Source: Halobacteriales archaeon QS_4_62_28 (GTDB lineage: Archaea > Halobacteriota > Halobacteria > Halobacteriales > Haloarculaceae). Taken from it: a stretch of 33,158 nucleotides of DNA. The notes beneath the pieces were generated by a model. It did not search any database and was not told the DNA's origin. It saw only the letters and a program-made list of their open reading frames with translations. Position 1 is the stretch's first letter; the number at the start of each line of letters is the position of its first letter. Below, in pieces: positions 8,552 to 26,147 of the stretch. The stretch is taken from positions 1 through 33,158 of the forward strand of contig PXRO01000031.1 in NCBI GenBank assembly GCA_003021685.1, in the 5' to 3' direction. The position numbers were made by a program, and so were the translations under genes.

Positions 8552-9562
8552 ATGGCTGTGAATACTCCAGTTCGGCTTGGCGTCAACGGGTTCGGCCGTA
8601 TCGGTCGGTGTGCCTTCAGGTATGCGCTGCAGAACGACGATGTCGAGGTCGTCGGCATCAACGACGTGATGAACTTCGAGCAGATGGCGTACCTGGCAGA
8701 GTACGACACGAATCTGGGAAACCTTTCTGAAGATATCGAACTCGACGGTAACGAATTACACGTCGGTGACGAGGTTATTTCTGTATTCAACATCCAGAGT
8801 CCCGCAGAGTTGCCCTGGGACGACCTCGATGTCGACGTTGCCATCGAATCGACCGGGATTTTTCGAACGAAAGACGAAGCATCTGCCCATTTAGAAGCAG
8901 GGGCGAGCAAAACGTTGATCTCCGCACCACCGAAGGGTAATAAACCGGTCTCACAGTTCGTATTCGGTGTTAACCAGGACGAATACGATGGCGAGGACGT
9001 CGTCTCCGGTGCGTCGTGTACTACCAACAGCGTCTCGCTGCCAATGTACGTCTTGCTCGAAGAGTTCGGCGTCAACTCGGCGGAAATGACTACGATCCAT
9101 GCCTACACTGGCTCCCAGGCCATCGTCGATTCACCGAAATCGAAGATCCGTCGTGGCCGGGCGGCCGCGGAGAACATCGTCCCGACGACGACCGGTGCGT
9201 CCCAGGCCACGACAGATATTCTCCCCGCACTCGAAAACAACTTCGAGGCGATGGCTGTTCGCGTGCCGACTGCGGCCGGTTCCATCACCGAGATTGTTGT
9301 CGATCTGCCGGGCAATCCCGGGGTCGAAGCGATCAACGATGCCATGACCGAGTACGCCAACGGCGAACTCGAACACTCGATGGGCGCGACAAACGACGAG
9401 ATCGTCTCCAGTGACATCGTCGGTTGGGAGTACGGCTCCTGTGTCGACCTGAGCCAGACCAGCACCGTCGAAGGGGGCGATCTGGCGAAGGTCTTCGCCT
9501 GGTACGACAACGAGATGGGGTACACGAGCCAGATGATGCGACTCGCTAACTACATCGCCTGA
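8552..9562 (+). CDS. gap: Glyceraldehyde-3-phosphate dehydrogenase, bacterial-type
   Basis: Oxidises glyceraldehyde-3-phosphate to 1,3-bisphosphoglycerate in the lower glycolytic pathway. The 336-residue protein has the Rossmann motif VNGFGRIGRCAFR (11-23), Asp38 in INDVM, which favours NAD+ over NADP+, the catalytic Cys156 in SGASCTTNS, the HAYTGSQAIVDSP segment with the catalytic His, and the C-terminal WYDNEMGYTSQ block. This is the bacterial/eukaryotic GapA-type enzyme (glycolytic GapI in haloarchaea), not the archaeal class II type. The stop codon is the first base triplet of a 3'-end repeat copy. It is flanked by two CBS-pair genes. Confidence 0.97.
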   Translation: MAVNTPVRLGVNGFGRIGRCAFRYALQNDDVEVVGINDVMNFEQMAYLAEYDTNLGNLSEDIELDGNELHVGDEVISVFNIQSPAELPWDDLDVDVAIESTGIFRTKDEASAHLEAGASKTLISAPPKGNKPVSQFVFGVNQDEYDGEDVVSGASCTTNSVSLPMYVLLEEFGVNSAEMTTIHAYTGSQAIVDSPKSKIRRGRAAAENIVPTTTGASQATTDILPALENNFEAMAVRVPTAAGSITEIVVDLPGNPGVEAINDAMTEYANGELEHSMGATNDEIVSSDIVGWEYGSCVDLSQTSTVEGGDLAKVFAWYDNEMGYTSQMMRLANYIA

Positions 9563-9579
9563 CACTATCGGACGTAAGC
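9560..9579 (+). repeat. 3'-end repeat, copy 2, at the gap stop codon
   Basis: TGACACTATCGGACGTAAGC begins with the gap stop codon TGA and matches the repeat consensus in most positions (GGACGTAA is exact). Confidence 0.5.
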
Positions 9580-9668
9580 TACTGACGTATTTTGTCCCCT
9601 GGGGTGGCAAATATCTTCACGAAGTCACATCCAACGGTATAGGCCTCCTCACCGCCGTTTTACTGCAT

Positions 9669-10118
9669 TTAATCACCCGCAGTGACGCTCTGGCTCTGGG
9701 CCCCGTCCGTGCGCAGTGGCTCACCCTCCCACTCGATGTCGAGTGTGTGCCGGGAGAGGTACAGTTCGAGGGTGTCGGCCAACAGCAGACCGTGGTAGGT
9801 GTCGTCATCGATGACAGGCAGCTGTTTGACCCCGTTCGCTCGCATCGTCTCTGCGGCGTCGTGAATCGTCGCGGTCGGCGAGATCGTCGCCGGTGGTGTA
9901 GACACGATTGCACGCACGGCCGGTTGCTCGTCGGTCTCTGCGACGAGTGCGACGATATCGGATTCGGTCACAATCCCGACGACGGTGTTATCTTCCAGAA
10001 CCGGTAGCGCGTGGACTCCGGGACGGCGGAGACGTTTTGCTGCGTCGCCAATAGGCGTGTCAGGCGCTACTGACGGGGGTGATCGGAGTTCGATGGCGTC
10101 GACCAGTATCTCGATCAT
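9669..10118 (-). CDS. CBS-pair protein
   Basis: A 149-residue protein with two CBS motifs: residues about 8-60 (PSVAPDTPIGDAAKRLRR, then GVHALPVLEDNTVVGIVTES) and 72-122 (ATISPTATIHDAAETMRANG, then VKQLPVIDDDTYHGLLLADT). A hydrophilic tail follows with no extra domain. It is a probable nucleotide-sensing regulatory module. It is convergent with gap. Minus-strand AT-rich sequence at 10150-10160 (AAATAATATA) is the likely promoter. It differs clearly from the CBS protein at 8048, so the two are not a recent duplication. Confidence 0.92.
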   Translation of the reverse strand: MIEILVDAIELRSPPSVAPDTPIGDAAKRLRRPGVHALPVLEDNTVVGIVTESDIVALVAETDEQPAVRAIVSTPPATISPTATIHDAAETMRANGVKQLPVIDDDTYHGLLLADTLELYLSRHTLDIEWEGEPLRTDGAQSQSVTAGD

Positions 10119-10289
10119 GGTTGACTCTGGTTTTCGGCCCGCTCCGTATATTATTTATGGACATATATGTTCTAGGAGCTAGAATAGCTAGCACAATAAC
10201 CATAGCATAGAGAAATACCGAAACAAACGTTGTTGTATTTTCCAGAAAGAATTATATTGTCGCATATCGAGATAGCAGCCACATAGCCC

Positions 10290-10460
10290 GTGACTGCTCG
10301 GCCTGGGCAACGGCTGATCGCCGCTGTCGCAATCCACAAACTCAAAATTCTCCTGGTTCGAGACGAGGGTCTGCTGGATCGACGACTTCTGCTCGCGCTC
10401 TCCCCGTTCGCACTCGACGACCTCGCGACGGTGCCGACGCTGGTACGCCACCTCCAGTAA
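10290..10460 (+). CDS. Small hypothetical protein (56 aa)
   Basis: A GTG-started frame begins MTARPGQRLIAAVAIHKLKI and ends DDLATVPTLVRHLQ. Its third codon positions are mostly G/C, as in real genes here, and the composition (Leu-rich amphipathic helices, few Cys) is reasonable. A TATA-like TTATATT lies at 10251-10257, about 35 bp upstream. It ends 5 bp before the convergent kinase gene. No family is recognised. The competing frames on the other strand are Arg/Ser-rich and look like shadows. Confidence 0.4.
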   Translation: MTARPGQRLIAAVAIHKLKILLVRDEGLLDRRLLLALSPFALDDLATVPTLVRHLQ

Positions 10461-10464
10461 ACAG

Positions 10465-12477
10465 TCACTCGGCATCGAGTTTGCAGGCGCGAACGTCGGT
10501 GAACACCGCTTCGCTGGTCCGTTTGCTATCGTGGCTACACACCAGCAGGCCAACGGTGACGTCGTCCCCGAGTTCGATTGGTCGCTGGTCGACCGGGTAC
10601 CACTGGTCGCCCGCTGCAGAGAGATAGCACGTCATGATACTGTCGGCATAATCGATGCGGTACCACGAGACGGTGTCCGGCAGTTCTTCGAACTGTCGAC
10701 TGTCGGTGAACCCGTCTTCGGCGAGTCGCCAGATGACTTCAGAGCCATGCGCATCGGTCGTCCCGACGTATCCAAACGGTGCTCGTTCGTCGGTGCCACT
10801 CCTGATCGTGACGCCGGCCTTGCTGAATTCGTCGCACCCGTCGAGTGACTCGATTCGTGCCTCGATCCGCACCGGTGTATTCCCCGCTCCATAGACGTGG
10901 TGGAACTCGTGAGTGTCGCTCCAGATGTTCGTCCCATTGCCCACCACTGTCCATCGGTCGGTTTCGTCGTCGTACTCTGCGCTGCCGGGAATCGATACCG
11001 GTCCGATGTCTCGGTTTTCGTCGATACTGATGGGTTCTGTCGGCCGGAAGGAACGGTCAGCGTCGGTGATAACTGGAATGTCGGAAATCCGGAATCGGAC
11101 TCCCTCCTCGTCTCCTTCGACGGTCACTTCGCCGTTTAGCCGGTCGACGGTCTCGGCGACGGTGTCGAGGCAGATGCCGGTCCCGTCGGTCTCGGAGTGA
11201 GAAGCCTCTCCTCGGTCGTCCTCGTCGAGCGTCGGCCCATCGTTGGCGACGTAGAAGCCACGGGGTTCGACGGTGCCGACTCGTACCGTCACGTCCGGCG
11301 CTCCCCTGTCGATTGCGTTGTTCAGCAGGTTCTCGACGAGTGGTCGGATCGTTTCTGTCTCTGCGGCGATGACTGTCTCCTCTGGCAGGTCGACGATCAG
11401 TTCCGCCTCTCCTGTCCGGATGCTTGCCCAGGTTGCTTCGAACAGGGTAGCGAGGTCGGTCGTCAAGACCTCGAGGTAGATGGATCGGATCGACGAACCC
11501 GAGAGGGTAGACGTGTCTACGTCTGTCGATAACCGGTGGAGGTCAGTGACCGTGCTCTCGACCTGTTCGATCATCTCTTCGGCCTTTTCGATACCTGCTT
11601 TTTCCCCCGCACGAGCGCGGTCGAGCGACCCGTATGCGACCTGCAGTGGCGTTCTGATGTCGTGGGCGACACGCTGGATGAACTGGTCGACGCGATTCGC
11701 CTGCTGCTTGAGTCGCCGCTCGTAGGTCTTCTCCTCCGTGATGTTTTCGGAGATACCGATCAGCCCCAGTATCTCGCCGTTCTGATCGCGCCAGGGGATT
11801 TTCGTCGTCCGCACCCGGTCTTCGTGGTCACCGTATTCGTGATCGACTACCTTCTGGTAGATCGCTTCGCCCGTCTCGACGACACGCATATCGTCTCGAT
11901 ACGCTTCCTTTGCGCGCTCCCGGAGTTCGGTTCTGGCAATTTCCACGTCGGTTTTTCCGATCACTGATTCCGGGTCGGCGTTGCCTTCGATGTCAGCCCT
12001 GTAGAGGTATTTACCCTGTGTATCTTTGGCATAGATCATCACGTCGCCGTCTTCGAGTAATGTCGTGAACAGACTGCTCTCTGCGGCCTCCCGGCGACGG
12101 TCTTGGTGTCTGGCGAGTGCGTCGTCGACGACGCCCCGAACCGTTCCGTCGTCGACCGACGTCGGAAGATACTCCAGGTCCCAGTGGCTGGCAAGTGCCG
12201 GTACGTCACACGCCGACTCGGGGGCGAAGACGAGTATCGGCACTGTCTCGTAGTCAGAACGGATCTCCTGATAGGCCTCGACCGGTTGTCTGTCCGGATC
12301 CTCGAGGACCACGACACATCCGATCTGATCCTGCGAGTCGAGCGTGTCGAGCGCATCGCCGACAGACGGAACGGTGACGATATCGGCTGCAGGGGCTGCC
12401 GACCGAACGCGCTCGGTTGCTGTCTCTGACTCACCTACCACGAGCACGCTCGTTGCGTCCACCAGGAGATAGCTCAT
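10465..12477 (-). CDS. Histidine kinase: pseudo-receiver, PAS, HisKA, HATPase and C-terminal DUF1349/lectin-like domain
   Basis: A 670-residue soluble sensor kinase. Residues 8-125 have the receiver fold pattern (VLVVGESETA, GCVVVLEDPD, VPILVFAP), but the acidic pocket and phospho-acceptor Asp are replaced, so it is probably a pseudo-receiver. A PAS domain spans about 135-250 (VMIYAKDTQGKYLYRADIEG). The dimerisation helix carries the phospho-acceptor His272 (RVAHDIRTPLQVAYG). The ATPase has its N box at 382-394 (ENLLNNAIDRGAP) and G box at 430-440 (TDGTGICLDTV). Unusually, about 200 residues follow the kinase core: from about 495 a beta-rich segment (GSAEYDDETDRWTVVGNGTN, SKAGVTIRSG, WYRIDYADSIMTCYLSAAGD, VTVGLLVCSHD) resembles DUF1349/concanavalin-like beta-sandwich domains. 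There is no signal peptide or membrane helix. No response-regulator gene is adjacent. Confidence 0.88.
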   Translation of the reverse strand: MSYLLVDATSVLVVGESETATERVRSAAPAADIVTVPSVGDALDTLDSQDQIGCVVVLEDPDRQPVEAYQEIRSDYETVPILVFAPESACDVPALASHWDLEYLPTSVDDGTVRGVVDDALARHQDRRREAAESSLFTTLLEDGDVMIYAKDTQGKYLYRADIEGNADPESVIGKTDVEIARTELRERAKEAYRDDMRVVETGEAIYQKVVDHEYGDHEDRVRTTKIPWRDQNGEILGLIGISENITEEKTYERRLKQQANRVDQFIQRVAHDIRTPLQVAYGSLDRARAGEKAGIEKAEEMIEQVESTVTDLHRLSTDVDTSTLSGSSIRSIYLEVLTTDLATLFEATWASIRTGEAELIVDLPEETVIAAETETIRPLVENLLNNAIDRGAPDVTVRVGTVEPRGFYVANDGPTLDEDDRGEASHSETDGTGICLDTVAETVDRLNGEVTVEGDEEGVRFRISDIPVITDADRSFRPTEPISIDENRDIGPVSIPGSAEYDDETDRWTVVGNGTNIWSDTHEFHHVYGAGNTPVRIEARIESLDGCDEFSKAGVTIRSGTDERAPFGYVGTTDAHGSEVIWRLAEDGFTDSRQFEELPDTVSWYRIDYADSIMTCYLSAAGDQWYPVDQRPIELGDDVTVGLLVCSHDSKRTSEAVFTDVRACKLDAE

Positions 12478-12577
12478 AGGGAACAGTACTTATTCGATCT
12501 TGAATACAGGTAATAAACCTTCCGGCACCGTACATTTTCCTTCGTGAGGGTCGACGCCGCTCCTGTCGTCCAGCTAT

Positions 12578-13639
12578 TCACTCGGTAGCCAGGACCTCGA
12601 CGATCCGCTCGGCGGCCGACCCGTCACCGTATGGCTGTGGGTGTGCTGGCGCGTCGAACGGCGCTGCGATGGCATCGAGAATTCGCTCTGTGCCTGCACC
12701 GACGAGCGCGTTCCACCCGTGCTGGACTGTTTCTGTCCACTCCGTTTCCTCGCGTAGCGTCACGCAGGGCGTTTCGAGGAAGAAGGCCTCTTTCTGGACC
12801 CCACCGGAGTCAGTGACGACTCGCTGTGCACCATCGAGCAGTCGAACGAAATCGAGGTACCCGACCGGATCGGTGCACTCCAGTCCCTCGGCGACGGCCG
12901 CCCAGCGGTTCTGGTCTCGCAACGCTGCTTCTGTCCTGGGATGAACGGGGAACACGACCGGGGCCGGTGCCTGCAGCAGCGCCTCCACGATGGCGTTCAG
13001 TCGATCCGGATCGTCGGTGTTTCGCGGTCGATGAACAGTCGCCAGCACGAACGGATCATCGTCGACCCCGAGTCGCTCGACGATATCTGACTCCCGGTGA
13101 GCGATCCGGTCTGCCCACTTGATAGCGTCGTACATCACGTCGCCAGTCTCGGACGCACGGTCTGCGATTCCTTCCCGTTCCAGGTTTCGCGTGGCCGCCT
13201 CACAGGGCGTGCAGAGCACGTCTGCGACGTGGTCTGTCACGATCCTGTTGATCTCTTCGGGCATCGAGCGCTCGCCGCTCCGGAGTCCTGCTTCGACGTG
13301 CGCAACAGTCGTGTCGCGGTTCGCGCCTACCAGCGCGCCGGCAATCGTCGAGTTCGTATCGCCATACAGGAGGATTACGTCGGGTGCTTCGGCGGCCACT
13401 ATCGGATCGAGGCGGCGCATCATCTCACCGGTCTGGACGGCGTGGGTGCTGGAGCCGACGCCGAGATTGTGGTCGGGGACCCTGAGATCGAGTTCCTCGA
13501 AGAACACGTCAGAGAGTTCTTGATCGTAGTGTTGCCCGGTGTGGACGAGTACCTCGTCGTGGTCCGGCTGGAGCGCTCGCGTCACCGGGAACGATTTGAT
13601 AAACTGCGGGCGTGCCCCGACGACTGTCAGGACCTTCAT
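12578..13639 (-). CDS. wecB: UDP-N-acetylglucosamine 2-epimerase (non-hydrolysing; WecB/WbpI family)
   Basis: A 353-residue GT-B-fold epimerase that inverts C2 of UDP-GlcNAc or of its 3-acetamido uronic acid derivative. Motifs: GARPQFIKSFPVTRAL at 8-23, TGQHYDQELSDVFFEEL, YGDTNSTIAGALVGA, HVEAGLRSG with PEEINRIVTDHVAD, TVHRPRNTDD, and the active-site loop DSGGVQKEAFFLETPCVTLR with TEWTET. This last loop is of the archaeal/WbpI-like kind rather than the enterobacterial WecB kind, so the substrate may be the diacetamido sugar. The start ATG at 13639 begins directly with MKVLTVVGARP; a GTG four codons upstream is not needed. It lies about 4.6 kb from the nucleotide-sugar dehydrogenase on the same strand. 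Confidence 0.93.
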   Translation of the reverse strand: MKVLTVVGARPQFIKSFPVTRALQPDHDEVLVHTGQHYDQELSDVFFEELDLRVPDHNLGVGSSTHAVQTGEMMRRLDPIVAAEAPDVILLYGDTNSTIAGALVGANRDTTVAHVEAGLRSGERSMPEEINRIVTDHVADVLCTPCEAATRNLEREGIADRASETGDVMYDAIKWADRIAHRESDIVERLGVDDDPFVLATVHRPRNTDDPDRLNAIVEALLQAPAPVVFPVHPRTEAALRDQNRWAAVAEGLECTDPVGYLDFVRLLDGAQRVVTDSGGVQKEAFFLETPCVTLREETEWTETVQHGWNALVGAGTERILDAIAAPFDAPAHPQPYGDGSAAERIVEVLATE

Positions 13640-14141
13640 GCTCTCACCCACCCGGTCGAGGTACTGGGTAACTGTCGCGTCGACACTCGGTCTGGTGGCA
13701 CAGTGGCGTCGTGGTGTCTCATCGAGATAATCTCGGTCGGGGTGTGTCTCCAGGGCATTACTTTGTGGTGAGCTAGTGGCAGTTTTGTTATTACTCTCCT
13801 ACAGCTATTCAGGAGATTCGATACCCCGGGATGTCGGAACGTCACTCGACCGGCGACGGACGGCAGGCCGCTCTGATCGGTTCTATAAAAACGGGGAGTG
13901 GGGTTGGGGGTGGGGTTGGCAAGTGGCGACGAGTCGGGGGACGGAGACAGCCAATGTGGGGATTACCTCCCCAAACAACACATGGTCGCCCAGTACTATT
14001 GTTAGTTGATTCGTACCTCTGCAAGTAACCGACTACCGGCCCGGGTAATGGGTGTAAGGAGACGTGAACGACGTTCGGAGAGCTGGTGAATCCCCGGAAA
14101 ATCATGCATAACATTGTCTATACGTCTGCTTTACTCCGGTA
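13640..14141. other. 500-bp intergenic region with G-quadruplex motif
   Basis: I see no convincing protein gene. Contents: the wecB upstream region; a TATA-like box (13883-13891) followed by a four-run G-tract (13893-13915); a small perfect hairpin TGGGGA-TTACC-TCCCCA (13956-13972); and the promoter of the next gene (TCTATAC near 14117). The region could encode a small RNA. Confidence 0.45.
13893..13915 (+). other. Intramolecular G-quadruplex motif
   Basis: Four G-runs of 4, 4, 5 and 4 bases (13893-13896, 13900-13903, 13906-13910, 13912-13915) are separated by loops of 3, 2 and 1 bases. This is the canonical pattern of a stable parallel quadruplex. A TATA box TTCTATAAAA ends 3 bp before it, so transcription would start inside or just after the G-tract. 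Confidence 0.6.
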
Positions 14142-14456
14142 ATGGTCGATAACGGACCGGTGCCCGACATTTCGAACAGCCAACTCCTTCGAGCCCTCGC
14201 CTCAGACACGAGACGCGCTGTGGTCCGGGAACTACAGGACACTCCCCTGCGCTCACTGGACGAACTCGCGAGCGCCGTTGCAAACAATACGAACACCGAC
14301 CTGACAGCGCTGGACCGGAGCAGACAGCGACTCCATCACTGTCATTTACCTCTCCTGGAGGAGGTCGGTGTCGTCGTGTACGATACGGACGAGGGTATCG
14401 TCGAGTACAGAGGGAACGACACGCTCGAAGCGATTCTCGGGGCCCTGCGCGACTGA
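14142..14456 (+). CDS. DUF7344-type winged-helix protein (short form)
   Basis: A 104-residue soluble protein. Residues 12-45 (QLLRALASDTRRAVVRELQD) are the first helices of a winged helix. The conserved haloarchaeal motif RQRLHHCHLPLLEEVGVVVYD then matches the RKRVYVxLYQxHLPK motif of the DUF7344 family seen three more times in this window. It is a likely DNA-binding regulator with unknown targets. A TATA-like TCTATAC about 22-27 bp upstream suggests a leaderless message. Its stop codon starts a 3'-end repeat copy. It is convergent with phnM. Confidence 0.8.
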   Translation: MVDNGPVPDISNSQLLRALASDTRRAVVRELQDTPLRSLDELASAVANNTNTDLTALDRSRQRLHHCHLPLLEEVGVVVYDTDEGIVEYRGNDTLEAILGALRD

Positions 14457-14470
14457 TACTGTTCGTTGTC
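14454..14470 (+). repeat. 3'-end repeat, degenerate copy 3
   Basis: TGATACTGTTCGTTGTC starts with the stop codon of the DUF7344 gene and matches the TGATACTG..GNTGT.. pattern. Confidence 0.4.
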
Positions 14471-14520
14471 AGTCATTACCGCTGATTCGCCACACCGTGT
14501 CGGCGAATCAGCGGTCAACA

Positions 14521-14542
14521 GTTACAACAAACAGTATGAGAC
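14521..14542 (-). repeat. 3'-end repeat, degenerate copy 4
   Basis: On the minus strand it reads TCTCATACTGTTTGTTGTAA, close to the copy at 18148-18170 (TCTCATACTGCCGGCTGTAA). It lies 20 bp past the phnM stop, facing copy 3 across the convergent junction. Confidence 0.45.
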
Positions 14543-14562
14543 GGACCGGTATCGGACAGTAC

Positions 14563-15735
14563 CTACGAACCGTCCTCGAACGGGCGCGGCGTCGCGTCGT
14601 ACACTTGCTTGCCGGCGACAAAGACACGCTCGACCCGTGGTTCTGGCCCGGGGTCCACGACGATGAGATCACCGCGAGCACCGGGCTCGATCCGGCCACG
14701 GTCTGTCAATCCGATGGCGTCGGCCGGTGCGCTCGTTACTCTGGCGACGCGCGTGGTGAGTGACTCTCCAGTGTCGACGAAGACACTCGCGAGCAAGGAC
14801 TGGGGACGGAAATCACTGCAGAGCACGTCGACGACGCCGTCATCGATTGCCCGTCTGGCCGATAGGTTGTCCCAGATGCTCTCACCACGAACGAGGTTCG
14901 GCGCGCCCATCGCGGCACACATCCCGGCAGCGCTGGCCGTCTGTGCTGCCGAAAGTGAGACGGGGAACTCACAGATATCGACACCTGCCTGTGCGTGGCG
15001 TTCGACCGTCGCCGGGTCTTCACAATCGTGGGCCGCGACCGGGACATCTCCGTTGCCGGCACGGGCAAGTAACCGTAGCGCACGCGCTCGTACCGTTCGA
15101 TCCGGGACACTGGTCCGCTGGGCGACGAGTTCGCTCATCGCCTCCTGTGACACGGACTCGCCGTCGTCAAACCGATCTGCGTACTCTGCTGGCGAGTCGA
15201 ACTGTCCTTCGCCGGGAACGTGGGTCACGAGCGAGGCGAGGGCGACAGCATCGTCGTCGAGTCGGGCACAGACGCGCTCGACGGAGGCTTTGCTCGTCAG
15301 TTCACACCGGAGGTGGACCAGATGAGTGCTCAAGGCGCGTCCGCTGCTATTGAACGCCGCTATCCCGTCTGCCACCTGGTCGGCGAGTTCTAGCGACCGG
15401 TTTTCGTCCGGCGTGTTCTCGAAAGCGAGCGCGTGACACTTCGTGGTGACACCCGCCGCTATCGCCGCCTGGTCACAGATCTGGATCGCTCTCGACGGCG
15501 GGACGCTGTCTTCTGCACGGGGAAAGAGGTGGCGCTCGATATCGTCGCCGTGGAGGTCGACGAACCCGGGGAGCAGAAACTTTCCAGACACGTCGATGTT
15601 CGTCGCTCCGTGGATCCTGCGCCCGACGGCATCGAAAACGCCGTCCTCGATTGCGACAGCGCCACCGTCGATTGTCCCCTCGGGCGTCACAACGCGCCCG
15701 CCAGTGAGTACTGTCCGTTCTCGACCGGTACTCAT
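14563..15735 (-). CDS. phnM: PhnM-like amidohydrolase (alpha-D-ribose 1-methylphosphonate 5-triphosphate diphosphatase)
   Basis: A 390-residue amidohydrolase-superfamily protein. In the C-P lyase pathway PhnM removes pyrophosphate from the ribosyl-methylphosphonate triphosphate intermediate. Diagnostic segments: LLPGFVDLHGDDIERHLFPR at 54-73 with metal ligand His62, GVTTKCHALAFEN, STHLVHLRCELTS, PVAAHDCEDPATVERH, and near the C-terminus VDVLCSDFRPQSLLASVF and GARGDLIVVD. The HGDDIERH signature separates PhnM from other amidohydrolases. No other phn genes are in the window, so it stands alone here. It may serve a distant C-P lyase cluster or a different hydrolysis. A 7-bp inverted repeat lies about 20-40 bp upstream of the ATG. 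Confidence 0.9.
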   Translation of the reverse strand: MSTGRERTVLTGGRVVTPEGTIDGGAVAIEDGVFDAVGRRIHGATNIDVSGKFLLPGFVDLHGDDIERHLFPRAEDSVPPSRAIQICDQAAIAAGVTTKCHALAFENTPDENRSLELADQVADGIAAFNSSGRALSTHLVHLRCELTSKASVERVCARLDDDAVALASLVTHVPGEGQFDSPAEYADRFDDGESVSQEAMSELVAQRTSVPDRTVRARALRLLARAGNGDVPVAAHDCEDPATVERHAQAGVDICEFPVSLSAAQTASAAGMCAAMGAPNLVRGESIWDNLSARRAIDDGVVDVLCSDFRPQSLLASVFVDTGESLTTRVARVTSAPADAIGLTDRGRIEPGARGDLIVVDPGPEPRVERVFVAGKQVYDATPRPFEDGS

Positions 15736-15756
15736 ACAGTACCCCCACTCCGCAGC

Positions 15757-15776
15757 GATCCGCTCTGCCGGATCGA
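15757..15776. promoter_or_regulatory. Inverted repeat upstream of phnM
   Basis: CGATCCG-CTCTGC-CGGATCG, a perfect 7-bp inverted repeat, lies about 20-40 bp before the phnM start. This is the position of promoter or operator elements. Confidence 0.4.
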
Positions 15777-15878
15777 TACCTGGCCGATCATATCGCTCCT
15801 GCGAAAGAAAACTAAATTGTTATGGAGTTTTTACCATCAGTAGTCGTGATTCTGTGGGACGAGCGCCATTAGCGAATG

Positions 15879-15898
15879 TCGCCACGACAGGGTGGCGA
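15879..15898. repeat. Stem-loop in the phnM/HalOD1 intergenic region
   Basis: TCGCCAC (15879-15885) and GTGGCGA (15892-15898) are perfectly complementary around a 6-base loop. The 320-bp gap between phnM and the HalOD1 gene otherwise contains only promoter-like AT stretches (GATAAGAAATAG near 15945). Confidence 0.4.
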
Positions 15899-16058
15899 GC
15901 ATCGCCACAGTGTGACAGTCACCCCAGAGGTGTCGACATGACCCGATAAGAAATAGATGCAGTTTTACACCTGGGACGGCGCGTGTTTACACGGGCAATC
16001 GAATGGAACGTATTGGTTTCGAACACGGCGACAGGGCGTCTAGGGAGAGGACTGAGAG

Positions 16059-16358
16059 ATGATGAGAGACGTCTCTATCGAGTACGACGACGAGTTCGAA
16101 CATCACGTGGTGGATGTCTCCGGCGACGATCAGCAGTTGATGAGTGAGTTGGTGGTGTATGCTGTCGCGGAGATTTCTGGGCGTGACCCGACGGATCTTC
16201 AGCCACTCGCGGGAGTGATCAATCCGGATGCGCTCGACAGTATTTTCGATCATATCGGCAACAGGGATCCGGGGACCGCGCACATTACCTTCGAGTATCA
16301 CGCCTACGAGGTCACGATCTTTGGCCACGGACGACTGACGATTGCTGGATCGAACTAA
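16059..16358 (+). CDS. HalOD1 output-domain protein
   Basis: A 99-residue protein that is essentially one HalOD1 domain, a haloarchaeal module found alone or at the end of signalling proteins. The core is LVVYAVAEISGRDPTDLQPL, then VINPDALDSIFDHIG, then ITFEYHAYEVTIFGHGRLTI. Its molecular function is not established. Two tandem ATG codons (16059 and 16062) are both possible starts. The stop TAA is embedded in a strong copy of the 3'-end repeat. Confidence 0.9.
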   Translation: MMRDVSIEYDDEFEHHVVDVSGDDQQLMSELVVYAVAEISGRDPTDLQPLAGVINPDALDSIFDHIGNRDPGTAHITFEYHAYEVTIFGHGRLTIAGSN

Positions 16359-16383
16359 TACTGCCGGACGTAACTATCTGAAG
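16356..16383 (+). repeat. 3'-end repeat, long copy 5
   Basis: A 28-base element beginning with the HalOD1 stop codon: TAATACTGCCGGACGTAA then CTATCTGAAG. The copy at 26120-26147 (opposite strand) is identical at 26 of 28 positions, well beyond the shared core. Confidence 0.75.
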
Positions 16384-16597
16384 AGTTTCGCCACTCCCGA
16401 GTCTCGCCATGGATGGCGGCGATAGGGATAACGGCTGGTTGGCACAGCCAGCGGTTCACCCGTTTGCCCGTAGTGAGGGCGGTAGTCCACAAATACCGCC
16501 TGCTAGTTCGCTTTCGATGTGTTTGCTGGTGGCCCGTGACACTACTGGGAAGGGAGAATATAACGAAGCCCTCTCTCATAGACGGGTGGAATGAGAT

Positions 16598-16783
16598 ATG
16601 CCAACACGGACTAATCGAACCGACGATGGGGGGACTCAGCGCTACCGGGCCATTGTCGACCGCTACCAGTCACGACCGAACCGGTGTACGATCTTTCGGT
16701 CGGACGCAACGAATGGTGAGCTGACATCCGCCTGGATCACGGCCCACGAAGGGTCGTACGTCTCTCTCCTGTTGATGCGGTGA
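16598..16783 (+). CDS. Small DUF7511-like haloarchaeal protein
   Basis: A 61-residue protein with the layout of a small haloarchaeal family I recall as DUF7511: an N-terminal polar tail, then YRAIVDRYQSRPNRCTIFRS, then ELTSAWITAHEGSYVSLLLMR at the extreme C-terminus. Function is unknown. A TATA-like GAATATAA at 16556-16563 lies about 35 bp upstream. The stop TGA starts another 3'-end repeat copy. It is convergent with the membrane DUF7344 gene. Confidence 0.75.
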   Translation: MPTRTNRTDDGGTQRYRAIVDRYQSRPNRCTIFRSDATNGELTSAWITAHEGSYVSLLLMR

Positions 16784-16801
16784 TACTACTGGACGTACCA
16801 G
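16781..16801 (+). repeat. 3'-end repeat, copy 6
   Basis: TGATACTACTGGACGTACCA begins with the stop codon of the DUF7511-like gene. It differs from the consensus at the centre but keeps GATACT and GGACGTA. Confidence 0.5.
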
Positions 16802-16891
16802 CGCGAGGAGTGTCTCGAGAATCCTCTCGTCGGGACTGGTGACGTCTCTGTTCGTGGGACACAAAAAATTCGTCTACGGTGGCCGGGGCGA

Positions 16892-17518
16892 TTAGGCGTT
16901 ACTGGTTTCGTCGGCCGATTGCTGGTTGATGTATCCGTTTGCCAGTGCGCAGGTAGCGAACGCGGCAATGATCACTGGAACGACCAGCGTGATTGATAGT
17001 GCTGACAGCGCCAGTGCAGCGCCATACAGCACGGCGCTCCCGGCGGCCAGGCCAGCGTAGTAGCGTGGCCAGCTATAGCCGTTCTCGTCGTTGATATCGA
17101 GGAACTCTTCGAGTTGCTCGGCGTTGGGGCCGAGTTCGATTGTCCCGCGGTTCTGATCGAATGCGACGACGTTCATATCGTCCATCTTGGGCAGATGGCA
17201 CTGATACAGTCCGACGTAGACTCGCTTTCGTTCGCTGGACGAGATGGCTCTGACCGTGGTATCGTTTTCGATAGCTGCGATATGCTCTGCAAGATCACTC
17301 AGCGAGACGACTTCCTCGTCCGACGTTTCGAGGTATCGCAACACTTCTCTCCGCCGCTGATTTTTCAACAGTTCGAACACACGGTCGATCGGCAATGCCT
17401 CGGGTTCGTCGGCTGGCTCTGTCACCCCTTCCGTCCGGGCTGACTCTGCTATCTCATCTGCACCCGCGACCGAACCACCCTCCGTCGATCGCGTCGACTC
17501 ATCGCGCGCTGCACTCAT
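16892..17518 (-). CDS. DUF7344 winged-helix protein with C-terminal membrane hairpin
   Basis: A 208-residue protein. The acidic N-terminal tail (1-45) is followed by a winged helix (45-130) with DRVFELLKNQRRREVLRYLE and the family motif RKRVYVGLYQCHLPKMDDMN, then two membrane helices (about 155-198, GLAAGSAVLYGAALALSAL and VVPVIIAAFATCALA). This suggests a membrane-tethered DNA-binding protein. GGGAGG about 10 bases before the ATG is a good ribosome-binding site, unlike most neighbours. Its closest relative in the window is the protein at 20010, with the same layout. Confidence 0.85.
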   Translation of the reverse strand: MSAARDESTRSTEGGSVAGADEIAESARTEGVTEPADEPEALPIDRVFELLKNQRRREVLRYLETSDEEVVSLSDLAEHIAAIENDTTVRAISSSERKRVYVGLYQCHLPKMDDMNVVAFDQNRGTIELGPNAEQLEEFLDINDENGYSWPRYYAGLAAGSAVLYGAALALSALSITLVVPVIIAAFATCALANGYINQQSADETSNA

Positions 17519-18082
17519 AGTAGCCTCCCAGTTTTGAATTGATTCATATTCGTGACCTCAGTTGTCCGTCCAGTACCGGCTTGTGTCCGTGTTTGTTTCG
17601 GCGGTGACCCCATACCGGTATTCTCGATGGCGACTCCCACCCGTGGGCGCCGGCATCGAATCGGTGGACATGTACCCTAACCAGCGGAAGGGTTTTAATT
17701 GTTTCCTATACTTAATTTACACGGAGATATTATCTGTGTTGTACTTTTCATCAGGTGAACTATTACGCCGTATAGGGATCAGTTACTTTCACTACAATAC
17801 TTTTGACATCAGTTTAAATAGGTCCAGGTGCAACATACTCAAATAAACTCCACCATTTGTTACTCTTACTGAATATGCCGACTATCGGCCCTTTTATGAT
17901 ATCTTGCTACTTTGGCAGACTGGTTCACTTCTGGATATACACCAGAATCGTGTAGATTGCCATCGTAGTGGCTATTGTCGGTCGTTCCAGGTGCCACTGC
18001 TCGTGGAATGTCCTCGCGAAGTTGGCAGTAGCACAGCGATAGACATGCGCAATGACGCGTTCAGCCCGGGGATTGTGACGGC

Positions 18083-18102
18083 TGATACTGCCGGCTATAC
18101 GG
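18083..18102 (+). repeat. 3'-end repeat, copy 7
   Basis: TGATACTGCCGGCTATACGG has the core TACTGCCGGCT. It faces copy 8 about 45 bp away. Confidence 0.6.
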
Positions 18103-18147
18103 CTATCGAGGATTTCGCGCCCCCGGGGTCGCTACTATCACGAAACC

Positions 18148-18170
18148 GTTACAGCCGGCAGTATGAGAAG
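18148..18170 (-). repeat. 3'-end repeat, copy 8
   Basis: On the minus strand it reads CTCATACTGCCGGCTGTAAC. It lies about 30 bp downstream of the stop codon of the minus-strand dehydrogenase gene and is in its sense orientation. Confidence 0.65.
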
Positions 18171-18200
18171 TATCAAACGGTGCGTCTACCGGTATCATCA

Positions 18201-19571
18201 CTACCGGTCGGAACTGGCTCGACCGCCGCCGATTGTGTAGACGTGCCCGTCGATGTCGGGATCAGTGATCACGTCCCGACCATCGACGACGACTGGGTCG
18301 GACAGTCGCGCCCACGGGATGTCTTCGAACGCGTCGTGTGCGGTGACGAGGACGAGTCCGTCGGGATCGACCCGGGGCAGCTCTGACAGCGTTGTCGGTC
18401 GTCCGGCAAACGTGGCCAGGTCACTACAGACAGGGTCGACCGTGAACACGTCGGCACCCGCTGCCGAGAGCGCAGACGTGATCGTCCACGCCGGCGACGC
18501 ACGGGTTTCGTCGATCCCTGGCCGATACGTGACGCCGAGGATAGCGACTGCCGCATCCGCCACGGGCACGCCCGCGCGCTCCAGTTCTTCGATGGTCTTG
18601 CGGACAGTGAACTGTTCCATTCGCTCGTTGACTGCGCGCGCGGTTTCCAGCAGTGGCGTCCGGGCTTCAGCGCTGTCGATGACGAAATGGGGGTAGTAGG
18701 GAATACAGTGGCCACCGACCCCCGGGCCGGGGTCGTGGATGTCACAGTACGGCTGGGTGTTGGCCGCAGCAATCGCCTCACGGATGTCTGCATCGAGTTC
18801 GTCACCGAGGCGGGCGAGCTCGTTGGCCAGCGCGATGTTGACATCCCGGTACAGCCCCTCGAAGAGTTTCACGCATTCGGCGGTCGTACAGTCGCTGACC
18901 GTGATCACGTCGTTTGTCGTTATTTCGCTGTAGACCAGTTTCGCGACGCGGGTGCTCTCCTCGTCGATCCCGCCGACGATCTTCGGATAGCTGTGCCGTA
19001 TGTCTTCGAGCGCCCTGCCGCTTGACGTTCGCTCCGGACAGAAGGCCAGTCCGAATTCGTCGGCCTCCAGGCCACTCTCGTCGACGAGCCGTGGCTGTAT
19101 CACGTCAGTACAGGTTTCGGGGGGCAGTGTCGATTCGACGAACACAGTGTCACTCGGATCTAGTCCGGCTCCGATATCCGTCACGACCGCTTCGATCGCC
19201 GAAAGATCCGGGCTGTCGTTGTCGTCCAGGAGTGTCGGCACGATGACGACGTGGAGGGTCGCGTCACGCGCGGCCGACTGTCCGTCGGTGGTCGCCCGTA
19301 ATGCGTCCTCATTGACGAGAGTCGATATTGCGGGTTCGAGTCCCGGTTCGCCCTCGACGGGTGCTGTCCCGTCGTTAATCGCGTCGACGACGTCACTGTC
19401 CAGGTCGACGCCGACGACGTTGCCATTCCGTGCCCCGAAGGTCGCTGCGAGTGGCGCGCCCATCTTTCCGAGACCGTAGATTGCAACGGGAGCCGCTCCA
19501 CTAGTAAAGGCCCTTCGCTGAGCTTTGTCACTGGCATCGCTGCCATAGAGCCCGTGTTTCGTCGTGCTCAT
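18201..19571 (-). CDS. wecC: Nucleotide-sugar 6-dehydrogenase (UDP-ManNAc/UDP-GlcNAc type; WecC/WbpA family)
   Basis: A 456-residue NAD-dependent four-electron dehydrogenase converting the C6 alcohol of a UDP-acetamido-hexose to a carboxylate. The N-terminal Rossmann motif is VAIYGLGKMGAPLAATFGAR (G33, G35, G38). Middle-domain catalytic Lys235 lies in TAECVKLFEGLYRDVNIALA. Catalytic Cys289 is in GPGVGGHCIPYYPHFV. The UDP-binding domain contains ILGVTYRPGIDETRASPAW. Residues 1-27 are a polar extension not usual in the family; the ATG at 19571 is preferred over the further-upstream 19586. The sequence is of the acetamido-sugar group, but whether it uses UDP-ManNAc or UDP-GlcNAc cannot be decided by eye. 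It is coded opposite to the acetyltransferase operon that begins 2.8 kb away. Confidence 0.93.
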   Translation of the reverse strand: MSTTKHGLYGSDASDKAQRRAFTSGAAPVAIYGLGKMGAPLAATFGARNGNVVGVDLDSDVVDAINDGTAPVEGEPGLEPAISTLVNEDALRATTDGQSAARDATLHVVIVPTLLDDNDSPDLSAIEAVVTDIGAGLDPSDTVFVESTLPPETCTDVIQPRLVDESGLEADEFGLAFCPERTSSGRALEDIRHSYPKIVGGIDEESTRVAKLVYSEITTNDVITVSDCTTAECVKLFEGLYRDVNIALANELARLGDELDADIREAIAAANTQPYCDIHDPGPGVGGHCIPYYPHFVIDSAEARTPLLETARAVNERMEQFTVRKTIEELERAGVPVADAAVAILGVTYRPGIDETRASPAWTITSALSAAGADVFTVDPVCSDLATFAGRPTTLSELPRVDPDGLVLVTAHDAFEDIPWARLSDPVVVDGRDVITDPDIDGHVYTIGGGRASSDR

Positions 19572-20519: not shown

Positions 20520-20558
20520 GGGCGCTTTCGACCGATTAGGTATGAAAAGAGGGGACGG

Positions 20559-20672: not shown

Positions 20673-20687
20673 CGGACGTGTCCACGC

Positions 20688-22240: not shown

Positions 22241-22366
22241 ATCGGACACTGTGGTTGTTATCGACGTACGTCTCCCGATAAACGGACCCTTCTCAGACAG
22301 GCGCTTTATAACAAAGGGCGCAGTCGATGTGGAATCTGACGAACACTGCTCTCCAGTGTGGATACT

Positions 22367-22945
22367 ATGACAAACGCGAGAATCGGTGATGAAAGTTACG
22401 TAGCACCGGACGCCGTCGTCGGCCAGCCCGGCGGTGACGACGTCGTCCCCACGCTCGGGCGGAACGCGACGGTTCGCTCGGGAACGATCATCTACGGTGA
22501 CGTGGCCATCGGTGATGACTTTTCGACCGGCCACAACGCCCTGATCCGTGGCGGGACGACCCTCGGCGACGACGTGCTCGTCGGGACGAACACAGTCGTC
22601 GACGGGAACGTTACGACCGGGTCCCACGTTAGTCTCCAGACCAACGTCTACGTCCCTCCAGAGACGACGATTGGCAACGAGGTGTTTCTCGGCCCACAGG
22701 CCGTGATTACCAACGATAACTACCCCATCCGGCCAGCGAGCGAAATCGAGGGTGTAACTATCGAGGATCACGTCTCGATTGGGGCTAACGCGACTGTCCT
22801 GCCCGGCCTGACCGTCGGTGAGGGGTCGTTCGTCGCGGCCGGCGCGGTCGTTACGGACGACGTGCCGCCCGAGACACTCGTCGTCGGCGCGGGCCGACAC
22901 GAATCCCTTCCCGAGAACTTACAGCGGAGGAACCAGATCGCATGA
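22367..22945 (+). CDS. Left-handed beta-helix N-acetyltransferase (WbpD-like)
   Basis: A 192-residue hexapeptide-repeat acyltransferase. Repeats run from about residue 8 (YVAPDAVVG) to 175 (VTIEDHVSIGANATVLPGLT, VGEGSFVAAGAVVTDDVPPE). The loop ITNDNYPIR and the HNALIRGGTTLGDDVLVG region resemble enzymes that acetylate the 3-amino group of UDP-3-amino-3-deoxy sugars (WbpD/WlbB group). Its gene overlaps the aminotransferase start (ATGA), which would supply exactly such an amino sugar. The GTG three codons before the ATG at 22367 is an alternative start. The enzyme is trimeric, cytoplasmic and acetyl-CoA dependent. Confidence 0.88.
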   Translation: MTNARIGDESYVAPDAVVGQPGGDDVVPTLGRNATVRSGTIIYGDVAIGDDFSTGHNALIRGGTTLGDDVLVGTNTVVDGNVTTGSHVSLQTNVYVPPETTIGNEVFLGPQAVITNDNYPIRPASEIEGVTIEDHVSIGANATVLPGLTVGEGSFVAAGAVVTDDVPPETLVVGAGRHESLPENLQRRNQIA

Positions 22946-24057
22946 ACCCTCACGCCACGCTCGAAGAGGTGCCACTCGCTGCGCCGGCAATCGGTGACAG
23001 GGAAATCCAGCAGGTGGCGGCGGTCATGGAGAGTGGCCAACTCGCGGCCGCCAGCGAGGTCGAGGCCTTCGAGTCTGCGTTTGCCGACTACTGCGACGCC
23101 GAGCACGCCGTCGCAACCAGTAACGGAACGACCGCGCTGCACGCGGCTCTAGCCGCTCTCGGCATCGAGGACGGTGATCGGGTCCTCACGACCCCTCTCT
23201 CGTTCGTCGCGACGGCCAACTCGATCAGGCTTGCCGGTGGCGACCCCGTCTTTGCCGATGTCGATCCGGTGTCGTACAACCTCGATCCCGACGCCGCACG
23301 GGACCGTATTCGCGAACTCGACGGTGATATCGACGCGATCATGCCTGTCCATCTGTACGGGCTCCCGGCGGAGATGGATCGCTATCGCGCGCTCGCCGAC
23401 CAGTACGACGCGGCACTGATAGAGGACGCAGCCCAGGCCCACGGCGCGGCATACCGGGGTACACCCGTCGGTTCAATCGGTGACGTCGGCTGTTTCTCCT
23501 TCTATCCGACGAAGAACATGACGACTGGCGAAGGCGGCATGGTCGTCACCGACCGCGACGACGTGGCCCGAGAATTACGGGCCTTCATCGATCACGGTCG
23601 TGATCCCGATGACGGTTCAGTCTACCGGTCAGTCGGCCACAACTTCCGGATGACGGACGTGGCTGCTGCTATCGGACGCGCCCAGTTACGCCGGCTCCCG
23701 GAGTTCGTCCGAACGCGCCGCGAGAACGCTCGTCGGCTGACAGAGCAAATCGTCACGTCGGCGGTCGAGACACCGACCGAACCTGCCTACGCCAGGCACG
23801 CCTACCACCAGTATACGATCACCACGCCGTATCGTGACGCGCTGGCGTCGGAACTAGATCGGTACGGTATCGGATCCGGGATCTACTACCCCACGCCGAT
23901 CCACGAACAGCCGGCCTACGACGGTATCGAGCGGTCGTTCCCCGTCGCAGAGCGCCTGACCGACCGGGTCCTGTCGCTCCCGATTCATCCGGAACTCACG
24001 GGCGAAACGGTCGACGCAATCGCGAGCGCTATCAATGGGTTCAGCACGGATGAGTGA
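22942..24057 (+). CDS. DegT/DnrJ/EryC1-family sugar aminotransferase (WbpE-like)
   Basis: A 371-residue PLP-dependent aminotransferase that converts a keto nucleotide sugar to its amino form, using glutamate. Motifs: PLAAPAIGDREIQQV at the start, GTTALHAALAALGIEDGD, VFADVDPVSYNLDP, LIEDAAQAHGAAYRG, Schiff-base Lys191 in FSFYPTKNMTTGEGG, and the GHNFRMTDVAAAIGRAQLRR block. It overlaps the acetyltransferase by 4 bases and the Gfo/Idh oxidoreductase by 8 bases, so the three are translationally coupled and likely act on the same molecule: oxidation at C3, transamination, acetylation. Confidence 0.95.
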   Translation: MNPHATLEEVPLAAPAIGDREIQQVAAVMESGQLAAASEVEAFESAFADYCDAEHAVATSNGTTALHAALAALGIEDGDRVLTTPLSFVATANSIRLAGGDPVFADVDPVSYNLDPDAARDRIRELDGDIDAIMPVHLYGLPAEMDRYRALADQYDAALIEDAAQAHGAAYRGTPVGSIGDVGCFSFYPTKNMTTGEGGMVVTDRDDVARELRAFIDHGRDPDDGSVYRSVGHNFRMTDVAAAIGRAQLRRLPEFVRTRRENARRLTEQIVTSAVETPTEPAYARHAYHQYTITTPYRDALASELDRYGIGSGIYYPTPIHEQPAYDGIERSFPVAERLTDRVLSLPIHPELTGETVDAIASAINGFSTDE

Positions 24058-25033
24058 GAACGGAAGCCTCCGAACCGGTGTCGTCGGCGTCGGTAACATG
24101 GGTCGTCACCACGCTCGCGTGTACGCCCAGAACCGCGCCGTCTCACTGGTCGGGGTCGCTGACGCGGACGAATCGATCGCACGCGAGGTCGCTGCCGACT
24201 ACGGAACCGACGCGCTCCCCGTCGACGAACTGCTCGAACGGGCTGATGCGGTCACGATTGCCGTGCCCACGCGGCACCATCACGACCTCACTGCAAAGGC
24301 CCTCGACGCGGGGACCCACGTTCTCGTCGAGAAACCGTTCGTCAAGGACAGTGCTGTCGGGGAGAAACTCGTCGCACAGGCCCGACAGGCCGACCTCGTG
24401 TTGCAGGTCGGCCACATCGAACGGTTCAACCCAGCGATCCAGACCGTCCAGGATATCATCACCGACCACGACGTGATCGGGATCGAGGCCCAGCGACTCG
24501 GCCCACCGGTCGACCGAGACACGACGGACAGTGTCGCCCAGGATCTGATGGTCCACGACCTCGACATCGCGCTGTCGCTGCTGGAAGCCGATGTCGATAC
24601 CCTCTCGGCGGCTGGCACCTGTGCCGGCCAGCACGTCACTGCACAACTCACCTTCGAGGACGGGACCGTCGGTCAGTTCTGTGCCAGTCGCGTCACCCAG
24701 CAGAAGGTGCGTCGGCTGGCTATCACGACCCACGACGCGCGGATAACCGTCGACTACGCGGATCAGGATGTCCAGATCCATCGCCACTCGGTGCCGGCGT
24801 ACGTCGAGAACGACGGCGACGTGCGCTATCGTCACGAGAGTGTCATCGAGCAACCGACCGTCGCCAGCGCCGAGCCGCTCGTTCGGGAACTCGATGCGTT
24901 CATCGAAGCAGTGATTACCGACAGTGAACCCGTCGTCTCGGGTCGGGACGGACTGCGCGCACTCGAACTCGTCTCGGCCATCGAAGACCAGGTGACGGTC
25001 GCGCCGGACGCCGAGCACCCCGACCTGCAGTAA
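24050..25033 (+). CDS. Gfo/Idh/MocA oxidoreductase, nucleotide-sugar 3-dehydrogenase type
   Basis: A 327-residue NAD-dependent oxidoreductase. The N-terminal Rossmann fold carries TGVVGVGNMGRHHARVYAQ, the EKP motif is in THVLVEKPFVK, and the catalytic region is LQVGHIERFNPAIQTV and DLMVHDLDIALSLL. The GHIERFNP segment is characteristic of enzymes that oxidise C3 of UDP-GlcNAc or of its uronate (GnnA/WbpB group), which feeds the aminotransferase. The ATG at 24050 lies inside the end of the aminotransferase gene; an earlier start at 24035 is less likely. It is the last gene of the tight three-gene block. Confidence 0.92.
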   Translation: MSENGSLRTGVVGVGNMGRHHARVYAQNRAVSLVGVADADESIAREVAADYGTDALPVDELLERADAVTIAVPTRHHHDLTAKALDAGTHVLVEKPFVKDSAVGEKLVAQARQADLVLQVGHIERFNPAIQTVQDIITDHDVIGIEAQRLGPPVDRDTTDSVAQDLMVHDLDIALSLLEADVDTLSAAGTCAGQHVTAQLTFEDGTVGQFCASRVTQQKVRRLAITTHDARITVDYADQDVQIHRHSVPAYVENDGDVRYRHESVIEQPTVASAEPLVRELDAFIEAVITDSEPVVSGRDGLRALELVSAIEDQVTVAPDAEHPDLQ

Positions 25034-25178
25034 GAGACCGAATTCGAGCAGCAACACCGTTTTACTTCCCCCCTCCGATCCGTATCCCTGCCTGAACGGT
25101 CAGTACAGGTCCAATAACAATGTTTACATCCTGTGACAGTTCGGCTATGCGAAGTCAGTCAGGACGGAGGGTCAGGTC

Positions 25179-26111
25179 GTGGGATCGGTCGTGATCTCGA
25201 TCGATGCCGAGCTGGGATGGGGATTCCATCGCCGAGACCTGCCACAGGAACGCCTCGAATCCGCACGTGTCGGCTGGAAGCGCCTGGCTGGCCTCTGCTC
25301 GGAGTACGGCATCCCCGCCACCTGGGCCATCGTTGGACATCTCTTCCTGTCGAACTGTGATACCCGTCACGCGGATCATCCGCGGGGTCCGGAGTGGTTT
25401 CGCTGTGAACAAGAGGAGTGGGCTGATCGTCCGAGCCTCCGCTATGGCCCTCACCTCATTGCCGACGTGTTCGACGATCCGGTCGCTCACGAGATCGGCT
25501 GTCACACGTTTTCACACGTCTCTTTCGGGCGACCGGAGACGACGGCCGCGACCGCTCGCAGTGAGATCAAGCGTTGTCTGGCCGCCGTTCCCTGGACGGA
25601 ACTCTCGCTTCGCTCGTTCGTGTTCCCCGATAACGCAGTCGGCCACCGGGATATCCTCGCCGAATACGGGTTCGAGTGCTATCGCGGCCCCGGCCCGGGG
25701 AGTCCGACGCGCTTCGAGAAGGTCACTGCAGCGACCGTCGGAATGCCCCAGCCCAACCTCGTCACACCGTCTATCGACGAATACGGTCTCGTCAACGTCC
25801 CTGCTTCACTCAACCTGTTCTCGTTCGAGGGGAGAGCGAAACGGCTGGTCACCCGGCTGTTCGAGGACCCGATCGTCGAACGCGCCCGTCGCGGTATCGA
25901 CGCTGCCGCGAACGGCGACGGCGTGTTCCACATGTGGCTCCACCCGAGCGACTTCATCGGCCGGCCAGAGATCGCGCGTCTGCGGACGGTCTTCGAATAT
26001 CTCGACAGCCGGCGGCAGGACCTGCGCATCGAAACGATGGGTGCCGTCGCAAAGAGAGTCCGTGACGAGCGGGGACCGTCACCCGCGTCAGAACCACGAT
26101 CTATCGACTGA
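25179..26111 (+). CDS. Polysaccharide deacetylase-like protein
   Basis: A 310-residue protein with the NodB/polysaccharide-deacetylase fold. The N-terminal metal-site strand SIDAELGWGF replaces the classical TFDDG (Asp-Ala-Glu variant), the second motif HTFSHVSFG is the usual H-x-x-x-H zinc ligand pair, and FVFPDNAVGHRDILAEYGFE and HMWLHPSDFIG correspond to the later motifs. It probably removes an acyl group from a glycan or lipid-linked sugar in the cytoplasm (no signal peptide). The start is GTG with GGAGG 8 bases upstream; no ATG is available in frame after the preceding stop. It follows the glycan operon by 145 bp and could be co-transcribed. Confidence 0.82.
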   Translation: MGSVVISIDAELGWGFHRRDLPQERLESARVGWKRLAGLCSEYGIPATWAIVGHLFLSNCDTRHADHPRGPEWFRCEQEEWADRPSLRYGPHLIADVFDDPVAHEIGCHTFSHVSFGRPETTAATARSEIKRCLAAVPWTELSLRSFVFPDNAVGHRDILAEYGFECYRGPGPGSPTRFEKVTAATVGMPQPNLVTPSIDEYGLVNVPASLNLFSFEGRAKRLVTRLFEDPIVERARRGIDAAANGDGVFHMWLHPSDFIGRPEIARLRTVFEYLDSRRQDLRIETMGAVAKRVRDERGPSPASEPRSID

Positions 26112-26119
26112 TAGTGGCA

Positions 26120-26147
26120 CTTCAGATAGGTACGTCCGACAGTATTA
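26120..26147 (-). repeat. 3'-end repeat, long copy 9
   Basis: The minus strand reads TAATACTGTCGGACGTAC then CTATCTGAAG. It is identical to the 16356-16383 copy at 26 of 28 positions, and starts 9 bases after the deacetylase stop in reverse orientation. Confidence 0.75.

Follow-up and report, generated by a model that had tools for sequence, protein, structure and literature searches.

Prokaryotic miniature inverted-repeat transposable elements (MITEs) such as RUP, Correia/NEMIS, ERIC and YPAL are described, in the portions of the sources available, as short, non-coding sequences present in many copies that carry terminal inverted repeats, duplicate their target and can fold into hairpins (PMC2229807, PMC10969869). 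Insertion sequences (ISs) of the IS1031 group of IS5 are stated, in the part of the account at hand, to insert at 5'-TNA-3' and to produce exclusively a 3-bp direct repeat (PMC12016507), and the ends of GTAG repetitive extragenic palindromes (REPs), as partially described, often provide the TAG stop codon of the flanking open reading frame (PMC3733652). Here we describe a repeat that shares the MITE features listed above, found in a 33,158-nucleotide contig of Halobacteriales archaeon QS_4_62_28 (PXRO01000031.1; the whole stretch is called the window). An earlier note had listed nine copies of a short repeat, and all nine positions exist in the window. Very probably each of these repeats is a terminal arm of a non-coding, hairpin-shaped, MITE-like mobile element of about 78 bp that is moved in trans and whose surviving copies are concentrated at stop codons.

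The genome to which the window belongs is a 2.64-Mb assembly in 57 contigs with a completeness of 89.7%, and its host belongs with Halomicrobium. The relatives Halomicrobium katesii (G001), H. mukohataei DSM 12286 (G002) and Halomicrobium sp. LC1Hm (G003) are all grouped in the same genus as the window's genome.

Target duplication and mobility

The repeat core as first delineated is real but is one arm of an imperfect palindrome of about 78 bp, not the whole unit. The left arm (TACTGCCGGCTGTAA) and the right arm (TTACAGCCGGCAGTA) are mutually complementary and span 78 bp end to end, and the element is, like a MITE, short and without coding capacity. In its strict palindromic form the arm occurs at 29 places in the window's own genome versus none for the reversed control. 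A covariance model trained on ten elements with their flanks removed listed 92 distinct places in this genome; the sequence was read for 90 (two were left out), and 56 of these 90 copies are exactly 78 bp long. Copy numbers are lower bounds throughout, with at most 150 candidates scored per genome and 24 in the surveys of the order and the phylum.

The 3 bp flanking the element are equal on the two sides in 44 of the 90 copies and always TNA (20 TGA, 14 TCA, 5 TAA and 5 TTA), against 15.8 equal flanks expected and a maximum of 30 in 10,000 trials when the right flanks were shuffled. TNA stands on both sides of 52 copies, these 44 being the identical ones, and a duplication reaching 4 bp was found in none of the 90. 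The target context is also biased, with C before and/or G after the TNA in 40/44 copies versus 1,116/2,766 background sites. The relative G113 has the same triplet on both sides of 61 of the 63 elements found with TNA flanks; the structural scans (G113, the sister stretches, the collected loci and the 193-element clustering described below) detect an element only if TNA flanks both of its ends. Stretches of 200 kb from three sister genomes hold 24 elements, 23 of them with equal flanks, and the reversed sequence gave none.

For 10 of these 24 elements a sister genome has an empty orthologous site, and 10 of the 12 comparisons are gap-free. In 8/10 cases the TNA of the filled site is present unchanged in the empty allele; the remaining two have TAA in place of TGA and CTA in place of TCA. 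What lies at the UDP-glucose dehydrogenase stop codon differs among the sisters: an old arm and then TCA in G003, two further elements, from another family, in G002, and one further element plus part of a second in G001, while aligned pieces of the region are 92-97% identical among the genomes. On Haloarcula plasmids, an element follows the TGA of a CAAX-protease gene in two relatives, and in two others the gene ends in TAG and no element is present. Given the equal TNA flanks and the empty orthologous sites, this is a small transposable (MITE-like) element that inserts with a 3-bp TNA target duplication. A protein-binding palindrome, such as an operator or a nucleoid-protein site, could account for a single arm that is near-palindromic by itself (4001-4014 in the window). 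It is extremely unlikely to account for a full unit of about 78 bp with a target duplication, for families that differ inside and keep the same length, or for the precise presence and absence between sisters.

Elements also occur within or beside one another. At locus L193 (6335-6497) an A-type element is nested in a D-type element at TCA, with a duplication. Four pairs in G113 lie 81 bp apart (L359 2665/2746, L361 1449/1530, L386 1540/1621 and L398 2499/2580) and read TNA-element-TNA-element-TNA, one of them being of mixed families; insertion beside an existing element may be favoured.

Stop codons and the hairpin

Read on one strand, every TNA target is TGA or TAA; on the other it is TCA or TTA, and TAG stops are not TNA. 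The gene starts and stops used for context counts were called in this analysis from codon usage; in the deposited annotation, consulted for plasmid regions, a coding sequence ends exactly at the element in one region. Scanned genome-wide by distance to stop codons, the enrichment at gene ends suspected from the window is real. In the window's own genome 27/90 copies lie exactly on a called stop versus 156/2,775 (5.6%) noncoding TNA sites, and among the equal-flank copies placed in distance bins (42 of the 44, two having fallen outside) 17 are at the stop versus 8.0% expected with C/G weighting. The sister sample (600 kb) has 16/23 elements at stops versus a background of 8.7%, or 12.1% when C/G-weighted, with one orthologous pair counted twice. 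Elements with an empty orthologous site are at stops in 9/10 cases, and G113 has 19/61 at stops versus 67/1,044 background sites (6.4%).

Convergent spacers were examined because they hold no promoter and so separate targeting from promoter harm. In these spacers the ratio of stop to other sites is 8:1 in the sister sample against a background of 108:256 (p 5e-4, the orthologous pair taken once), and 15:8 in the window's own genome against 61:203 (p 5e-5). Several points tell against targeting of the stop itself. Relative to TNA sites lying 1-30 nt beyond a stop, the excess at stops in the window's own genome is only about two-fold, with p 0.059; the convergent spacers of G113 have 10 copies at stops and 5 elsewhere, a raw count without background; and insertion inside the 3' untranslated region (UTR) could be harmful in ways that insertion at a stop codon is not.

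The stop codon is a preferred, not an exclusive, site, as 63/90 copies are not exactly on a called stop and 17/90 lie between divergent genes. Thus the suggestion that the repeat is mobile and tolerates only gene ends was right about mobility, given the filled and empty sites and the TNA duplication, and wrong about confinement. It is conceivable, though doubtful, that a haloarchaeal superfamily of hairpin transposons of about 78 bp actively seeks stops, using an enzyme that cuts C-TNA-G and is steered by target context or by transcription or translation. If true, each insertion would rebuild the stop and spare the host.

The dominant subfamilies of the element are A (TACTGCCGGCTG) and B (TACTGTCGGACG), and the window's 14457 element is in a third, C (TACTGTTTGTTG). 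In a scan of 279 loci, an overlapping set of which many were chosen because they bear elements, palindromes with equal TNA flanks had TAC...GTA ends in 171 cases, TAG...CTA ends in 20 and any of ten other end triplets in none. A length of 78 bp is found in 124 of the 171, and one of 76-80 bp in 166. The 20 TAG...CTA loci, including L002, L014, L059, L127 and L156, have commonest lengths of 78-80 bp and probably represent one more family of this type.

From a set of 193 distinct elements, those of 77-80 bp were grouped by greedy clustering into 30 clusters, of which nine have at least four members; interiors are very unlike, but self-complementarity is strong. Length, ends and covarying arms are common to the families. 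When seven consensuses hand-picked from the clusters were compared for covariation, pairing was kept in 169/201 both-sided differences, and 195/238 cells paired versus a mean of 158 and a maximum of 174 after shuffling. Within subfamilies, one-sided changes mostly break pairs (81 vs 29 in the 23 copies of A; 49 vs 14 in the 29 copies of B), and both-sided changes exceed independence (30 vs 16.6 in A; 6 vs 2.5 in B). We read the hairpin as a structure needed for moving and not as one that the host keeps after insertion. Palindromy and length would be maintained because mobilisation requires them: both are conserved from one family to another, whereas the stems mostly decay in individual copies.

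Several copies fold into a long single hairpin (z-scores: L002, -9.2 and -9.3 on its two strands; 14457, -8.9; L006, -7.6; 18086, -4.1). Hairpins of this strength, the over-representation at stops and in convergent spacers, and the excess of both-sided changes in subfamily A would all suit a host gene-end element that terminates transcription or shields the 3' ends of mRNAs and that may have begun as a mobile element before being co-opted. Intrinsic terminators of archaea carry a run of T within the hairpin or immediately behind it. The stop-site elements do not conform to this pattern: TTTTT is present in 0/27 of them, and downstream T-runs are no rarer there than in controls (TTTT 4/27 vs 30/175; TTTTT 1/27 vs 13/175). 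Together with the mostly pair-breaking one-sided changes, a copy at the end of gap that no longer folds and the copies between divergent genes, this makes a gene-end element unlikely, and nothing was found in support of the terminator role proposed at the outset.

Elements of the window and their distribution

A 15-mer pattern with at most two mismatches gave 8 matches in the window versus a mean of 0.41 expected, and 0/100 shuffles reached 8. In that count 4000 and 18149 were each scored on both strands because the arm itself is palindromic, and 10068 is a weak match absent from the earlier list. By structure, three full elements are present (9563-9639, 14457-14536 and 18086-18163), which score 64.2-78.3 bits in a covariance-model search of the window, together with four arms or halves (4000, 16356, 16781 and 26120). 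As had been claimed, the coding sequence stops right at a copy in four genes, namely gap (TGA 9560-9562), the DUF7344 gene (TGA 14454-14456), the HalOD1 gene (TAA 16356-16358) and the DUF7511 gene (TGA 16781-16783). Each stop adjoins the repeat, but it consists of the three bases immediately preceding the arm, the target-site duplication, and does not lie inside the repeat.

The three full elements are all on the plus strand. The first (9560..9642 with its flanks; 72.6 bits) is decayed, with unequal flanks, the gap stop on the left and TAG at 9640-9642, and its fold is no better than that of shuffled sequences (z 0.26); the copy listed at 9560 opens it. The second (14454..14539; 64.2 bits, z -8.94) has a TGA/TGA duplication, the left-hand copy serving as stop codon of the DUF7344 gene, and seven more copies from the same genome were aligned with it. 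The copies described as facing each other at 14454 and 14521 are a real pair, but they are the two ends of this one element and not two copies. Likewise, 18083 and 18148 are the two ends of the third element (18083..18166; 78.3 bits, z -4.06), a subfamily A member with a TGA/TGA duplication located 37 bp beyond the stop of the minus-strand UDP-glucose dehydrogenase gene.

At 16356..16397 on the plus strand, the TAA stop of the HalOD1 gene is followed by one B-type arm, with 35/39 bases as in the B right arm; 16359-16444 is a weak match in the window search (17.8 bits, E 0.0064). A second half element, at 26106..26147 on the minus strand, is one B-type arm (27/39 bases as in the B right arm) adjoining TAA just beyond the 3' end of a gene for a putative polysaccharide deacetylase. 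As originally noted, the copies at 16356 and 26120, the latter as its reverse complement, are identical at 26/28 bases, which can be read directly from the sequence. A decayed arm directly after the DUF7511 stop (16781..16799, plus strand) has a best match of only 21 over 39 bases. The solitary arm at 4000..4015 (plus strand) has no TNA flanks and begins 10 bp after a TAA stop (3988-3990). The window search found no significant full element at 4001-4051 (10.9 bits, E 0.68), and neither 16781 nor 26120 was among its matches.

The half element at 16356 continues into a remnant of a tnpB end. This putative tnpB-like gene-end remnant, named from a reading of its translation, occupies 16388-16483, and in other loci the same repeat continues a tnpB-like C-terminal coding end. 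The Rfam family sot0042 matches 16388-16451 below its gathering score, the only match in window positions 9000-19000. At gathering level, Rfam returned only a tRNA and 16S rRNA for the window plus three loci, and no family lies on the elements. The tRNA gene is at 4143-4216, and its 3' end (AATCCCTCCACCGGCTT) is repeated about 100 bp downstream (about 4303-4319), as at an old integration site; the start of an archaeal 16S rRNA gene at 33062-33158 is interrupted by the end of the window.

Matches were found in 7/7 genomes of the genus, in 59/195 genomes and 26/66 genera sampled from the order, and in 8/196 genomes sampled from the phylum, all eight of the same order (the share of this sample from outside the order is not given). 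A scan of named genomes yielded at least 105 stretches with haloarchaeal titles except for contigs named 'Euryarchaeota archaeon' and 'Nitriliruptoraceae bacterium'. The element-bearing contig with the latter label (L230) is possibly a misbinned haloarchaeal contig. Plasmids contributed 36 places in 9 records from Haloarcula and Halomicrobium, and 50,697 phage records gave no match.

The mobilising enzyme and comparison with known systems

Insertion adds the element and a direct 3-bp TNA duplication, with C before and G after favoured, as observed above. Every TNA being TGA or TAA on one strand, landing on a stop codon duplicates the stop and leaves the protein unaltered. The enzyme would act in trans and, by analogy with the IS1031 group of IS5, would most likely be a DDE transposase making cuts staggered by 3 nt. 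Purifying selection, perhaps together with a true target preference, would then concentrate the survivors at stops. Some results sit uneasily with a mobile element moved in this way. Flanks are unequal in 46/90 copies of the window's own genome, which we interpret as decay. Inspection of 60 loci among the 147 PF01609 matches (30 of 86 in the genus and 30 of 61 in four relatives, judged on the top three and top two candidate end pairs per locus, respectively) revealed no autonomous relative with the element's ends around its own transposase. PF13586 gave nothing above the cut-off in 11 genomes, and no IS1031-like transposase was found between matching ends. The collected loci likewise showed no autonomous partner in scans; the transposase families covered by the search were PF01609, PF13586 and Y1.

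Several candidate partners were rejected. In L411 (1008-2498) an IS, which we take to be ISH8-like, sits inside an element and has its own duplication of about 10 bp. TNA pairs with unlike ends at the three-mismatch limit in L350, L404, L408 and L428 were taken as chance, and five long pairs in L193, L226 and L237 turned out to be separate or nested elements.

Transposition in single-stranded form, catalysed by a Y1 (RAYT or IS200) enzyme as for REPs and bacterial interspersed mosaic elements, would agree with short palindromes in many copies at gene 3' ends and with the Y1 genes in 5/6 genomes tested. It is highly improbable, because nothing in G003 matched Y1, although this genome carries two elements whose orthologous sites in sisters are empty. 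The duplicated 3-bp target also argues against it, whereas IS605-type elements are stated to cause no duplication in the part of the source available (PMC3119063).

The MITE-like element resembles, and differs from, several described systems as far as the accessible portions of their accounts go. YPAL likewise has filled and empty sites, but its duplications range from 3 to 26 bp, and most of the tabulated MITEs have TA ends and A+T-rich sequence (PMC2229807, PMC10969869). The present element, by comparison, is about 78 bp, palindromic throughout and flanked by a fixed 3-bp TNA duplication that is often a stop, and no parent transposon was found for it. With the IS1031 group it shares the 3-bp TNA target duplication; no shared terminal repeats were found in the genomes searched, and the ISLrh repeat begins GAACCTGTC, not TAC (PMC12016507). 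We do not file the element under this group because no such transposase was found and the PF01609 loci lack these ends. The MITEs, SMRs and PATEs of Haloquadratum are also haloarchaeal and transposase-free with inverted ends, and the SMR HqIRS41 is 80 bp (PMC3119063). Unlike the present element, the SMRs are described there as having no target duplication and the PATEs as lacking terminal inverted repeats; the HqIRS elements are set apart by description, not by sequence (PMC3119063). The GTAG and CGTC REPs are palindromes found mainly between tandem or convergent genes, but they are 20-40 bp long, and their stop is TAG, not TNA, and comes from the repeat itself, whereas here it comes from the duplicated target (PMC3733652). 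REPs, SMRs and PATEs, as far as they are described in these sources, do not fit the element.

A literature search, covering largely titles and the openings of abstracts, found no description of the element, which does not establish its absence from print. The element works like a MITE: the testable MITE features are present, and the parent transposon was not found. An abundant haloarchaeal repeat is thereby explained by a mobile element whose insertions leave genes intact through duplication of their stops, and it is evidently reshaping the gene ends and 3' UTRs of these archaea. The cultured close relatives offer many filled and empty sites and young families in which to study the mover and any aiming at stops. 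Compared with the systems above, what is new is the stop-regenerating TNA target, the near-fixed hairpin of about 78 bp with covarying families, and the breadth of the element across haloarchaea.

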